A stretch of DNA of 64,000 nt from Miltoncostaea oceani (lineage in GTDB: Bacteria > Actinomycetota > Thermoleophilia > Miltoncostaeales > Miltoncostaeaceae). Positions 32,631-38,372 of this stretch are shown here, in pieces. A model generated the notes under the pieces. It worked only from the letters and a program-made list of their open reading frames with translations. It did no database searches and was not told the DNA's origin. The stretch is taken from NCBI RefSeq assembly GCF_018141545.1, contig NZ_CP064356.1, positions 1,811,001-1,875,000 on the forward strand, read 5' to 3'. Within the stretch, counting starts at the first letter, position 1. Each line of letters starts with the position of its first letter. The position numbers were made by a program, and so were the translations under genes.

Positions 32631-34103
32631 TCAGGCGGCGCAGGTGCGGGCCTCCTGCAGGGCGTCGCGGCGCACGCCGAGCTGCCAGGCGCTGCCCCCG
32701 ACGGCGACGGACCGCTCGAGGTGGGCGACGGCCTCGTCGCAGCGGCCGAGGTCGATGAGCGCGCGGCCGGTGTTGTAGCGGGCGTTCCCCTCGTAGGGCG
32801 CGCCGGTGCCGGCGAGGGCGCGGAGGGCCTCCTCGGCGAGGGCGAGGCCCGCCGCGCTGTCGCCGTCCTCGAGGGCCGCCGTCGACCGGTCGGTGAGGGC
32901 GACGGCCTCGTCGGCCGTCGGCACCGCCCCGCCGTCGGCGGGGGCGGCGGGCCCGGGGTCGGGCTCCGGCTCGGGGGCGGGGGCGGGGGCGGCGGGGACC
33001 TCGCGGGTCACGGTCTCGACGACGGTGCGGGGGGGTTCGGCGGGGGCGGCGCCCGTGACGGTGCGGGTCGTGGTGCGGGTGACGAGGGCGTCCGCGTCCC
33101 CGTCGTCGCCACCGCCGGCGACCATGACGCCCGCGGCGGTCGCGCCGGCGATGAGGACGAGGGCGACGGCGGTGCCGGCGAGTCCCCGGGACCGGCGCCG
33201 CCGGCGGCCCTCCTCGATCCCGGCGCCGAGGAGGGGCTGGACGGCGGTGGCCCCGTCGGACGCCGCGGCGTCCCGCAGGGCCGCCGCGAACGACCGGGCC
33301 CGCGGGTACCGATCGGCGGGGTCCTTGGCGAGGCCCCGGGCGAGGACGGCGTCGACGGCGGCGGGCAGGTCGGGGCGGCGCGCCGTCGCGAGCGGGACGG
33401 GCTCGCCGACGTGGGCGGTGAGCTCCGCGATGCCGGTGCGCCCCGCGTAGGGGCGCTCCCCGGTGAGCAGCTCGAACGCGACGGCGGCGAGGGAGTAGAC
33501 GTCGCTGACCGCCGTGACGGGCTGCCCCTGCGCCTGCTCGGGGGAGGTGTAGCCCGAGCTGCCGAGGACGGTGCCGGTGGCCGTCAGGCCCGCCCCGGCG
33601 TCCTCGAGGAGGCGGGCGATGCCGAAGTCGGCGATCCGGATGGCGCCGTGCTCGTCGAGGAGCAGGTTCGCCGGCTTGACGTCGCGGTGGACGACCCCCG
33701 CGGCGTGGGCGGCGTCGAGGGCCTCCGCGGCCTGGGCGACCCAGTCGACCGCCTGGGCCGGCGTGGGCCGGCCGTGCGCGAGGCGCTCCTCGAGGTTGCC
33801 GCCGGGGACGTACTCCATGACGAGGTAGGGGGCGCCGTCGTGCTCACCGACGTCGTAGATGGTCGCGACGTGGGGGTGGTGGATGCGGGCGGCCGACATG
33901 GCCTCGCGGCGGAAGCGGGCGCGGAAGACCTCGTCGGCGGCGCCGTCGGCGGTCTGGACCTTCACGGCCACGGTCCGCCCGAGGCGGTCGTCGTGGGCGC
34001 GGTAGACGGCGCCCATCCCACCGGTCCCGATCCTGACGGGGTCCCGGTAGCGGGCGGGCAGGACGCCGCGGGGGCGGTCGTCGGTGGGTGGCTCGGAGGT
34101 CAC
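32631..34103 (-). CDS. Ser/Thr protein kinase with extracytoplasmic TPR-like domain
   Basis: 490-residue Hanks-type membrane kinase. The kinase domain (about 20-275) has glycine loop GTGGMGAVYRA at 26-36, Lys48 (VAVK), catalytic HRDVKPANLL with Asp141, and DFG Asp159. A juxtamembrane stretch leads to one membrane helix (LAGTAVALVLIAGATAAGVM), a Pro/Glu/Ala-rich linker, and an outer domain with a TPR-like alpha-hairpin pair (AALEDGDSAAGLALAEEALRAL, ARYNTGRALIDLGRCDEAVAHLE). It lacks PASTA repeats. GTG 34103 is a best guess; the frame stays open to 34238 with low-complexity sequence. Confidence 0.9.
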   Translation of the reverse strand: MTSEPPTDDRPRGVLPARYRDPVRIGTGGMGAVYRAHDDRLGRTVAVKVQTADGAADEVFRARFRREAMSAARIHHPHVATIYDVGEHDGAPYLVMEYVPGGNLEERLAHGRPTPAQAVDWVAQAAEALDAAHAAGVVHRDVKPANLLLDEHGAIRIADFGIARLLEDAGAGLTATGTVLGSSGYTSPEQAQGQPVTAVSDVYSLAAVAFELLTGERPYAGRTGIAELTAHVGEPVPLATARRPDLPAAVDAVLARGLAKDPADRYPRARSFAAALRDAAASDGATAVQPLLGAGIEEGRRRRRSRGLAGTAVALVLIAGATAAGVMVAGGGDDGDADALVTRTTTRTVTGAAPAEPPRTVVETVTREVPAAPAPAPEPEPDPGPAAPADGGAVPTADEAVALTDRSTAALEDGDSAAGLALAEEALRALAGTGAPYEGNARYNTGRALIDLGRCDEAVAHLERSVAVGGSAWQLGVRRDALQEARTCAA

Positions 34104-34255
34104 GTGTGGGGGGCGGGGTGGGGGAGGACGCGGTGACCCGCCCCGGTCGACGTGCCCTCCGGGGCGCCGCCGGACACCTCCCCGGGGCTGCGGCGGGTGC
34201 GTTCGTGCAGCCCCAACGCCGGTTACGCACGTCGCCACGGGGGTATCCGTTGCTA

Positions 34256-34274
34256 CCGCCGATCGCGTCGGCGG
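34256..34274 (+). other. Leader hairpin before GT4 gene
   Basis: CCGCCGA, loop TCGCG, TCGGCGG, ending ten bases before the AGAGGAAGGA ribosome site. The 197-bp gap between the kinase and GT4 starts otherwise shows a possible TATCCG -10 near 34244 and nothing else definite. Confidence 0.35.
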
Positions 34275-34300
34275 GACCGGACCAGAGGAAGGACGCCGCC

Positions 34301-35419
34301 GTGCGCATCGGCCTGATCGCCCCTGCGTGGATACCCATCCCGCCCCCCGCCTACGGGGGCATCGAGCATGTCGTCGCGCTCCTCGCGGGCGGCCTCGCCC
34401 GCGCCGGGCACGAGGTGGTGCTGGTCGCCCCTCCCGGCTCGCAGGTGGACGGCGTCAGGGTCGTCGAGACGACCGATGAGCTCCCGCCCCGGATCGGCCT
34501 CTCGTGGGAGGAGGCCATGCACCTCCTGCCCGCGATGGGGGAGTTCGAGGGCTGCGACGTCGTCATCGACCACTCCGGGCCGTTCGGCGCCCACCTGGCC
34601 GCACATGCCGGCCCGGCCGCGTTCCACGTCGTCCACTGCCCGCTCGGGCTATCGGAGCGGGTGGTGTACGAGGGCCTCGCCGCGGCGGCCCCGGAGCTGC
34701 GCTTCATCGCGATCAGCGAGGCGCAGCGCCGATGCGCCCCGGCCCTGGCGTTCGCGGGTGTGTGCCACAACGCCCTCGATCCGTCCGCCCTGCCGTTCTC
34801 GGACGTCCCGGGTGACCACCTGGTCTTCCTCGGCCGCATCGCCCCGGGGAAGGGGCCGGGCGCGGCGATCGAGATCGCCCGGCGCCTCGACATGCCGCTC
34901 CTGATCGCGGCGAAGTGCCGCGAGGACGAGGAGATGGAGTACTTCGACCGGGTCGTCGCGCCCCACGTCGACGACGACCGGGTCCGGTACCTCGGCGAGC
35001 TGACCGGCGACGAGAAGTTCGCCCTGCTCGCCGGCGCCGCGGCGCTGGTCTTCCCGATCGACTGGGAGGAGCCGTTCGGCATGGTGATGATCGAGGCGAT
35101 GGCGTGCGGAACGCCCGTGCTCGCGACCCGGCGCGGCGCCGTCCCCGAGGTGGTGCTCGACGGTGAGACGGGCTTCGTCCGCGACGACGTCGACGGGCTC
35201 GTGGAGGCCGCGGCGTCCCTCGGCCGGATCGACCGCCGCCGGTGCCGGGCGCACGTCGAGGTGAGGTTCTCCGTCGAGCCCTTCATCCGGCGTTACGAGG
35301 AGGCGATCGGCACGGTGCATCACGCGGCCGTCCGCCACGCGGCCCACCGCTCCCTCCGTCCCCGGCCCCTACGGTCGCTCGACGCCGTCGACACCACCCG
35401 CGGGCTCGTCCGCCGCTGA
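34301..35419 (+). CDS. GT4 family glycosyltransferase
   Basis: 372-residue GT-B retaining glycosyltransferase. The N-terminal domain opens MRIGLIAPAWIPIPPPAYGGIEHVV. The C-terminal nucleotide-sugar site has FLGRIAPGKGPGAAIEIA and the E-x7-E pattern in EEPFGMVMIEAMACGTPV, followed by GAVPEVVLDGETGF. Donor and acceptor cannot be assigned. GTG 34301 follows AGAGGAAGGA. It is convergent with, and overlaps by 51 bases, the debranching-enzyme gene; this pairing suggests a shared carbohydrate pathway such as storage glucan or a compatible solute. Confidence 0.9.
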   Translation: MRIGLIAPAWIPIPPPAYGGIEHVVALLAGGLARAGHEVVLVAPPGSQVDGVRVVETTDELPPRIGLSWEEAMHLLPAMGEFEGCDVVIDHSGPFGAHLAAHAGPAAFHVVHCPLGLSERVVYEGLAAAAPELRFIAISEAQRRCAPALAFAGVCHNALDPSALPFSDVPGDHLVFLGRIAPGKGPGAAIEIARRLDMPLLIAAKCREDEEMEYFDRVVAPHVDDDRVRYLGELTGDEKFALLAGAAALVFPIDWEEPFGMVMIEAMACGTPVLATRRGAVPEVVLDGETGFVRDDVDGLVEAAASLGRIDRRRCRAHVEVRFSVEPFIRRYEEAIGTVHHAAVRHAAHRSLRPRPLRSLDAVDTTRGLVRR

Positions 35420-37585
35420 CGGGCGCGGCGGCGGCCACGGGAGGTCGTCGCCCGTCGTCCGGCGGCCCATGGTGGGGCGCGCCGCCAGCTCGACGGCGAT
35501 ACCGGCCGGCACCGACGCGAGGCGCGGTCCGCGGTGGGTCACGTCGACCGAGAGGACGCCGCCGGGGAACGTCATGCCGTGCACCTCGAGGGAGCGTAGG
35601 TTCGCCGGGAGGACGGGGTCGATGGTGATCCGGCCGTCGGGGATGTCGGGCTCGAGCCCGAGGAGCGTGGTCGCGAGAGCGAGGGGGACCCCCGCCGCCC
35701 ACGCCTGCGGGCGGCAGGCGTTGGGGTACGGGATCGGCACGTCGCCGGGCTCGCGGCGGTGGCCCCCGAACAGCTCGGGCAGCCGCCCGTCGAACGCCGT
35801 CGCGGCGTCGATCAGAGCACCCGCGAGGTCCACGGCAGCGCCGTGGAGGCCGTAGCGGCGCAGCCCCTCGCAGGCGATCGCCGTGTCGTGGGGCCAAACC
35901 GACCCCGCGTGGTAGGAGATGGGGTTGAAGCCCGCCATGTCCGACGAGAGCGTGCGGAGCCCCCACCCGCTGCTGAGCGCGGCGCCGCGGATGTGCGCGG
36001 CGACGTGGGCCGCCTGGGCGGGCGTGGGGACGTCGCACCACAGCAGGTGCCCCATGTTCGACGTGGCGGCCGGCACCGGCCGCTTCCGGCCGTCGAGGGC
36101 CAGCGCGAAGAAGCCGGGCGTCCCGCCCTCGCCCGGGACCCAGTACCGCTCCCGGATCGCCGCCCGGGTGCGCGCGGCCTCGTCGAGGAGGTCGGAGGCG
36201 GCGGCGTCGTCGCCGACCCACGCCAGGGTCCGGGCGAGCTCGACGCGGGCGCGGTACGCGTAGCCCTGGACCTCCACCATCGCGATCGGCCCCTCCGCGA
36301 GCGACCCGTCGGGGAACTGGACGGCGTTCTCGGAGTCCTTCCACGCCTGGTTGCCGAGGGAGCGGGCGCCGAGCGGCGCGTACTCGAGCAGGCCGTCGCC
36401 GTCCGGGTCGCCGGGACCCCGCATCCACGCGAGCGCCCGCCGGGCCGCGGGCAGCAGCGGCTCCACGGACCCCCGGTCGAGGCCCCAGCGCCGCGCCTCC
36501 CCCAGCATCATGAGGAACAGGGGCGTCGCGTCGACGCTGCCGTAGTAGGGGCGCTCGCCCCCCGCCGTCCCGCTGCCGAGCCAGTCGCGGCGGGTGAGGC
36601 GCACCTCGTGGAGGATCTTCCCGGGCTGTTCGTCGTTCTCGGGGTCGTCGCGCACGCCCTGGCGGGCGGCCAACCCGTGGAGCGTGTCGCGCAGGCCGTG
36701 CAGGTCGAAGGCGCGCGCCTGGTGACCCGCGATGAGGCTGTCGCGGCCGAAGAGGGCGACGAACCAGGGGATGCCGGCGGCGATCAGGCGGCGGCCCGGG
36801 TCGAGGGCGTCGGGGATGGCGAGCGTCGCGCGGTCGGCCGCGCCGTGTCGGCACGCGCGTCCGAAAGCGGGCGGATCGCTGCGGACGCCGGCGCTCGCGG
36901 GGGGGGCGGGGTACCCGGCGGGCTCCTCCGCCAGTTCGTCCCGGCCCCCCGACGCGCGGACCCGCAGCCGGACGGTGCGGGTCTCGCCGCCCGTGAGCTC
37001 GACGTCCCAGGACGCGCGGCCGGCGTCGAGCCGGTCGGGCGGCGGATCGAACCGCACCCGGGTCTCGAGCGCCAGCGAAGGGTCGGCGAAGCGCAGGCCC
37101 TCCTCGGCCGGAGTCGGCGGCGGCGCCGTCCGGGCGAGGTCCCCGCCGAGGCGGAGGCGGCGGACCTCGAAGATGTCGGCGAAGTCGCAGTCGACGTCGA
37201 TCATGAGCTCGAGGCGTGCCCGTCCCGCTCCCCAGAGCCGCAGCACGAAGCTCTCGTCCATCCCGTCGGGCGAGACGGTGCGGCGGCGCTCGATCTCGAG
37301 GGGCGCGTCGGGGCCGAGGCCCTCGACGTTGCAATACGAGTGGAACCGGGCCGTGGTCGGTGAGGACACCGCCGCCACCAGGTGCGTCGGCCGCCGCCCC
37401 GACACCCGGGTCTCGAGGCGGCTGAGGTGGCGGGTGTCGCGCACGAGGAGACCCGACGCCCCGTCTCCCATGGCCCCCGACGCGTCCGAGAGCGCGAAGC
37501 TCAGCCCGTTCACGAGCGTCACGGGGTCGGAGGAGACCGCCCCGCCCGCGGCCGGGCCCGTCCACGGCTCCGCCGGACCCGTCAC
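35369..37585 (-). CDS. Glycogen-debranching-type amylo-alpha-1,6-glucosidase
   Basis: 738 residues. The N-terminal GDE_N_bis-like beta domain (about 20-210) contains LVNGLSFALSDASGAM, LLVRDTRHLSRLETR and IERRRTVSPDGMDESFVLRL. The C-terminal (alpha/alpha)6 catalytic barrel contains AAGIPWFVALFGRDSLIAGHQ, KILHEVRLTR, YYGSVDATPLFLMMLGEA, DSENAVQFPDG and VWPHDTAIACEGLRRYG. It hydrolyses alpha-linked glucosides, possibly alpha-1,6 branches or a small glucoside; not proven. The GTG start overlaps the stop of a 24-codon leader ORF, implying translational coupling. Confidence 0.9.
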   Translation of the reverse strand: MTGPAEPWTGPAAGGAVSSDPVTLVNGLSFALSDASGAMGDGASGLLVRDTRHLSRLETRVSGRRPTHLVAAVSSPTTARFHSYCNVEGLGPDAPLEIERRRTVSPDGMDESFVLRLWGAGRARLELMIDVDCDFADIFEVRRLRLGGDLARTAPPPTPAEEGLRFADPSLALETRVRFDPPPDRLDAGRASWDVELTGGETRTVRLRVRASGGRDELAEEPAGYPAPPASAGVRSDPPAFGRACRHGAADRATLAIPDALDPGRRLIAAGIPWFVALFGRDSLIAGHQARAFDLHGLRDTLHGLAARQGVRDDPENDEQPGKILHEVRLTRRDWLGSGTAGGERPYYGSVDATPLFLMMLGEARRWGLDRGSVEPLLPAARRALAWMRGPGDPDGDGLLEYAPLGARSLGNQAWKDSENAVQFPDGSLAEGPIAMVEVQGYAYRARVELARTLAWVGDDAAASDLLDEAARTRAAIRERYWVPGEGGTPGFFALALDGRKRPVPAATSNMGHLLWCDVPTPAQAAHVAAHIRGAALSSGWGLRTLSSDMAGFNPISYHAGSVWPHDTAIACEGLRRYGLHGAAVDLAGALIDAATAFDGRLPELFGGHRREPGDVPIPYPNACRPQAWAAGVPLALATTLLGLEPDIPDGRITIDPVLPANLRSLEVHGMTFPGGVLSVDVTHRGPRLASVPAGIAVELAARPTMGRRTTGDDLPWPPPRPSAADEPAGGVDGVERP

Positions 37586-37656
37586 CGGTCACCCCCCGGC
37601 CGCCGGGCGGACGAGGCGACCGGGTATCCCGCCGCGCACGTCACGGACAGCGTCAT
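37582..37656 (-). CDS. 24-codon leaderless leader ORF coupled to debranching-enzyme gene
   Basis: ATG 37656 starts exactly six bases after a TACGGT hexamer, the same geometry as the leaderless genes of this window. It reads 24 codons, MTLSVTCAAG through ARRPGGDR, and stops with a TGA (37584-37582) that overlaps the GTG of the next gene. The position at the mRNA 5' end and the GTGA overlap suggest it delivers ribosomes to the debranching-enzyme start, or acts as a regulatory leader peptide. The tail has ARRPGG, which might slow ribosomes. The peptide itself matches nothing I know. Confidence 0.6.
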   Translation of the reverse strand: MTLSVTCAAGYPVASSARRPGGDR

Positions 37657-37662
37657 GGCCCG

Positions 37663-37668
37663 ACCGTA
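37663..37668 (-). promoter_or_regulatory. -10 hexamer TACGGT of leader ORF / debranching-enzyme operon
   Basis: TACGGT, six bases, ATG 37656 on the minus strand. Confidence 0.6.
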
Positions 37669-37778: not shown

Positions 37779-38372
37779 TCAGCACACGACGGTGAGGTGG
37801 ACGGGCGCGTCCTCGCTGTTGGCGGGGTTCGAGGCCTGCCAGACCCGGACGGTGACGACCGCCGGGTCGGCGGGGTCGATGCCGACGGTCGGCACCCGGT
37901 CGAAGAGGACGGTGTCCCCGGGCGCGACGACGGCGATCGTGGCGGAGACGGCGCAGGCGACGACGCTGCGGTCGAACGCGACGCGGTAGCGCCCGAACGC
38001 CGTCCGGGCGGCGGCGGTCGCGCCGCGGCCGCGGGCGAGGGTCCCGTCGGGGGCGACGACCGCCCACCGCGGCTGCCGTTCGCGCAGGTCCGCGGAGAGG
38101 TCGGACGCCCGCCACCCGAGGGGCTTGGCGGGGGTTCGCGGCACGGGGCGGACCGGTCCGAGGAGCTTCAGGCTCTCGTTCGCCCGGCGCACGGCGGCCT
38201 GCGAGATCCGCTGGTTGACGGCGAGCTGCTGCGCCGACACCGTCACCGGCCGCGCCGCCTGACCGGACGCCTCGTCGGTGGCCTGCCCGGCGACCAGGAC
38301 ACCCCCGATCCCGAGCACCGCCCCCGCGCCCGCCGCCAGCCACACGCGGCCCACCCGTCCTGTCGTCGCCAT
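37779..38372 (-). CDS. Unknown membrane-anchored or secreted protein
   Basis: 197 residues. An N-terminal hydrophobic helix after a basic start (VWLAAGAGAVLGIGGVLVAG) is either signal anchor or signal peptide. A helical stretch (VSAQQLAVNQRISQAAVRRANESLKLLG) follows, then a strand-rich domain with two cysteines (VVACAVSAT and the C-terminal LTVVC) that may pair. GGGGAGGG sets ATG 38372. No family recognised. Confidence 0.7.
   Translation of the reverse strand: MATTGRVGRVWLAAGAGAVLGIGGVLVAGQATDEASGQAARPVTVSAQQLAVNQRISQAAVRRANESLKLLGPVRPVPRTPAKPLGWRASDLSADLRERQPRWAVVAPDGTLARGRGATAAARTAFGRYRVAFDRSVVACAVSATIAVVAPGDTVLFDRVPTVGIDPADPAVVTVRVWQASNPANSEDAPVHLTVVC

Follow-up and report, generated by a model that had tools for sequence, protein, structure and literature searches.

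A predicted leaderless mini-ORF coupled to a debranching-enzyme gene in Miltoncostaea oceani, and mini-genes of the same kind in its family

In the actinobacterium Miltoncostaea oceani, a 24-codon open reading frame (hereafter the mini-ORF) begins directly behind a promoter-like hexamer and ends on the start codon of a glycogen-debranching-type gene. The best explanation for this arrangement is that ribosomes load on a leaderless mRNA, translate the mini-ORF and pass by coupling to the debranching gene, a reading to which we give a probability of about 0.6. The architecture is more than a product of chance; the individual case is likely, though not certain. Loading at a bare 5' end followed by restart had been the original prediction, and both of its features, leaderless initiation and coupling, are widely used by this genome, while its premise of a weak start site and its suggestion of a sensor found no support.

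Results

The window is the whole stretch of DNA analysed, 64,000 nucleotides of contig NZ_CP064356.1, and the coordinates below are positions within it. On its minus strand, a −10 hexamer of the TANNNT type, TACGGT (37663–37668), is followed by a 6-nt spacer, CGGGCC (37657–37662), and by the ATG (37656) of the mini-ORF MTLSVTCAAGYPVASSARRPGGDR (37582–37656), whose TGA (37584–37582) overlaps the GTG (37585) of the downstream gene in a GTGA stop/start junction (37582–37585); the strand reads ...GGTACGGTCGGGCCATGACGCTG...CGGCCGGGGGGTGACCGGTGACGGG.... All of these details, including the 24-codon frame and its overlap with a debranching-type gene, had been read correctly in the original prediction. 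The gene (35369–37585, minus strand) encodes a 738-aa GDE_N_bis or amylo-alpha-1,6-glucosidase-type protein (Pfam PF14742, E = 3.3e-35) that matches PDB 7vma (E = 3.2e-65), a solved putative archaeal-type debranching enzyme. A recognisable −35 element or sigma-70 two-hexamer site was not found at the mini-ORF promoter. From the sequence, the mRNA is predicted to begin at A37656, which would make AUG its first codon. Both the size of the mini-ORF (24 codons, in a range of 5–50) and its RTGA-type overlap (GTGA at 37585–37582) agree with the class of small ORFs described by Shell et al. in 2015.

The start site of the main gene, supposed at the outset to be weak, carries a Shine-Dalgarno (SD) sequence among the strongest ~1% sampled. 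This SD, GGGGGGTG, lies in the 3' end of the mini-ORF (37590–37597, minus strand), 4 nt before the GTG. Assuming the standard anti-SD (a search for the genome's own 16S rRNA was without match), GGGGGGTGA before the GTG gives a duplex of −13.7 kcal/mol, in which GGGGGGTG pairs over 8 bp, and just 1.06% of 1411 sampled non-leaderless genes have a stronger site (median −5.8 kcal/mol). Although the genome is otherwise complete, the bacterial 16S rRNA model did not match it, whereas it matched control genomes; a withheld stretch or a search artefact may be the reason. The mini-ORF itself has a coding score of 0.99; gene starts average 10.3 and open intergenic stretches −8.5, with 13.6% of these stretches scoring as high. 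No significant coding bias indicative of selection on the peptide was detected (GC3–GC2 skew, p = 0.41). Coding skew is likewise absent from the other coupled mini-ORFs, as expected if the architecture alone matters.

These properties bear on the rival that survives best, in which A37656 or a base close to it is indeed the 5' end of the mRNA but the mini-ORF, perhaps translated, is incidental, the debranching gene being initiated in the ordinary way by its SD from a 71-nt leader. The rank of the SD and the lack of coding bias fit this account, as do the lack of conservation in relatives (below) and the "pervasive translation" of many small ORFs under little selection in M. tuberculosis (PMC9094748). 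However, dinucleotide shuffles of the 193-nt region upstream of the debranching gene contained a coupled leaderless ORF at a frequency of 0.54%, and one opened by ATG at 0.06%, making an ATG at the modal leaderless distance joined to a GTGA overlap a rare combination. Moreover, an AUG at the 5' end should capture ribosomes that finish precisely on the GTG, and ribosomes translating the mini-ORF would disturb the G+C-rich fold that contains the SD and the start. We consider initiation by the SD alone rather unlikely, and favor coupled leaderless initiation.

The promoter-start spacing of the mini-ORF recurs across the genome, which has a G+C content of 75%. In a 0.86-Mb sample, TANNNT preceded an ATG or GTG near called starts 51, 32 and 16 times at distances of 6, 7 and 8 nt; at 6 nt it stood before 3.3% of near-start positions versus about 0.03% of internal codons, and over 6–8 nt before starts it was about 100-fold above internal codons. 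Because of this peak before start codons, the organism very probably uses leaderless mRNAs widely. No −35 signal was seen at these TANNNT sites. The ATG of the mini-ORF lies exactly at the modal distance, and this spacing is the informative feature; by itself the GTGA overlap says little, since every open ORF in that frame necessarily stops at the TGA.

Coupling was counted in a 1.66-Mb sample, with 60 dinucleotide-preserving shuffles as the chance model. Leaderless ORFs coupled through NTGA to a called gene start numbered 11, versus 0.88 ± 0.90 in the shuffles (maximum 3), so that the architecture is enriched in this genome as in the class of Shell et al. With unshuffled controls (TANNNT at 10–40 nt) the effect is weaker and in the same direction (coupling in 11/24 versus 34/147, p = 0.025), and among coupled leaderless ORFs of at least 15 codons the excess is small (2 seen versus 0.63 expected). 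About one false coupling is expected per sample, given the 290 NTGA-form starts sampled.

That one expected coincidence in 1.66 Mb leaves room for a second rival, in which TACGGT-N6-ATG is a chance match, transcription comes from elsewhere, for example by read-through from an upstream 197-aa gene, and translation begins from the SD. The 197-aa gene (37779–38372, minus strand) is co-directional and ends 193 nt before the debranching gene; no terminator-like site was found between the two, read-through into the debranching gene is possible, and the mini-ORF promoter lacks a −35 match. By contrast, the genome's leaderless promoters show no −35 signal either, the spacing is exactly modal, and the couplings seen are well in excess of expectation, all of which make a chance match improbable. 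The 197-aa protein, for which no Pfam or NCBIfam family was found, likely has an N-terminal membrane segment, and paralogues stand in tandem in congeners (for example G021:C494, and G019:C1:3199396 and 3200117).

The sensor suggested earlier, a regulatory leader peptide on which ribosomes stall near ARRPGG in response to a metabolite or amino acid, has the position of the ORF in a leader and nothing else in its favor and is very improbable: the mini-ORF shows no attenuator-typical codon run, arrest motif or significant codon bias, no terminator-like site, alternative terminator structure, or RNA family or riboswitch above threshold was found near it, the start region has a strong fold yet one like its shuffles (z = +0.78), and relatives do not conserve the ORF. 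A riboswitch, a terminator and an unusual fold at the leader were each rejected.

We compared 60 relative loci of the debranching gene from across the phylum (35–58% identity). A leaderless ORF coupled to the GDE_N_bis start is absent from all 60, which excludes a conserved leader device of GDE_N_bis genes. The original prediction had looked to relatives for a conserved short ORF with a GTGA overlap, seen in coupled leaderless form in 0/60 loci here, and had named in advance as refuting that relatives keep the gene without the ORF, as all 60 do. A device specific to this species may still be compatible with the absence.

Within the order, the GDE_N_bis gene is patchy, occurring in 4 of 42 genomes, and a GT4 glycosyltransferase gene occurs in exactly the same four. 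The two form a strongly linked pair found in several orientations (34088–37585 in the window; also G009, G016 and G021). Among the 60 relatives, a same-strand GT4 gene lies upstream of the debranching gene at 21 loci and downstream of it at 14; GT4 is convergent at five and upstream on the opposite strand at one, and it was not found in the fetched flanks of the other 19. Of the 21 relatives with GT4 upstream on the same strand, 17 have a candidate GDE start between −8 and +6 nt relative to the end of GT4; the junctions include ATGA (L008 and L010), GTGTCTGA (L012) and TAGCGTG. In the window, a plus-strand GT4 gene (34088–35419, start perhaps at 34301, from Pfam, relatives and gene calling) converges on the debranching gene; the five other relatives with a convergent GT4 have no coupled leaderless mini-gene. 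Because coupling to GT4 is also what the nearest relatives show, loss of GT4 as translation donor and gain of the leaderless mini-gene, in this inferred order, is the likely history, and the mini-gene may be a stand-in for the lost GT4 partner.

A CNNM/CBS-domain transporter gene provides a stronger example of this architecture: of its 19 closest loci (at least 63% identity), 16, from 15 genomes and 7 genera, have a leaderless mini-gene of 7–8 codons before the gene, namely L180 (G000:C1:3270955), L197 (G000:C1:3174438), L179, L181–L188 and L190–L194. The mini-gene has a TATCAT-like −10, a spacer of 6–7 nt and a GTG start, and its stop either overlaps the main start or is only a few bases away. 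Its peptides diverge (VNLSPGR, VDTSPGR, VTDLLDRE, VDEPGAAR, VNKIGAVP), and it uses one or the other of two reading frames. TTG often serves as the main start, and in some loci CTG apparently does; the two copies scored have little SD (−2.5 kcal/mol).

Upstream of a WhiG-type sigma-factor gene (G000:C1:1146034), six genomes carry a leaderless ATG mini-gene of 8–9 codons with an NTGA overlap (L203–L206, L209 and L210), and five others have a sigma gene that seems to be leaderless in its own right (L213, L214, L215, L217 and L221). At both the CNNM/CBS and the whiG-type genes, the architecture is conserved and the peptide is not. A mini-ORF at a transaldolase gene (L228) is not conserved in the three congeners; other coupled mini-ORFs precede some distant orthologues.

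Discussion

In the mechanism that we propose, which agrees with all of the observations, RNA polymerase would start at A37656, 7 nt after TACGGT, giving an mRNA that begins with AUG. This bare 5' AUG would load ribosomes, and their translation of the 24 codons would keep the very G+C-rich start region open until termination at the TGA within GUGA, after which they would begin again on the GUG that overlaps it, a step for which we draw on findings of re-initiation in other Actinomycetota. The strong SD embedded at the 3' end of the mini-ORF could retain a ribosome as it terminates or attract further ribosomes, and the peptide itself is probably disposable. Ancestral coupling to the upstream GT4 stop codon was probably replaced by the mini-ORF once the pair had become convergent. 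Several points stand against coupling: the ORF is shared by none of the relatives, a gene with so strong an SD could in principle do without coupling, the excess over shuffles is small among coupled ORFs of at least 15 codons, and transcription may begin farther away and run in from the upstream gene.

More tentatively, and at less than even odds, mini-genes in this family may replace a lost operon partner as ribosome donor and constitute a regular, selected mode of initiation, of which the CNNM/CBS and whiG-type genes would be examples, as opposed to occasional accidents. The debranching gene's own case is modest, and its value lies mainly in the genome-wide and family-wide pattern. With it, leaderless mini-genes that are start-stop-coupled reach beyond mycobacteria into a distant class of Actinomycetota, here in a genome rich in leaderless starts. 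The CNNM/CBS and whiG-type mini-genes offer natural cases for asking whether mini-ORFs exist only to deliver ribosomes.

Coupled leaderless mini-ORFs are already known as a class from mycobacteria (Shell et al. 2015; PMC4633059), in which leaderless initiation requires an RTG at the mRNA 5' end and needs nothing more, RTGA-coupled leaderless small ORFs are enriched (23/220 versus 32/1000), and the junction of small ORF and gene can also contain an SD. The M. oceani mini-ORF resembles them in its RTG at the predicted 5' end, its small frame and RTGA overlap, its non-conserved peptide, the ribosome-delivery model and the SD at its junction. It differs in that the mycobacterial 5' ends and translation were measured, whereas those of the mini-ORF are predicted, and in that its host belongs to a different, Thermoleophilia-type class of Actinomycetota. 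The ribosome-delivery idea was stated in general form by a 2025 review (PMC12548453).

In M. tuberculosis, expression of PPE2 requires a uORF that overlaps it through AUGA and acts mainly by termination-reinitiation (PMC11260477). The uPPE2-PPE2 pair and the mini-ORF share a short upstream frame and an out-of-frame AUGA or GUGA overlap; uPPE2, however, is leadered, has its own SD and lies under a riboswitch, and PPE2 has no SD, whereas the mini-ORF is leaderless and the SD of its main gene is very strong. In the GT4-GDE operons of actinobacterial relatives, as in the window, the GDE start sits on or next to the stop codon of an upstream frame, but there the donor is a full glycosyltransferase gene, whereas in the window the putative donor is a 24-codon leaderless ORF.
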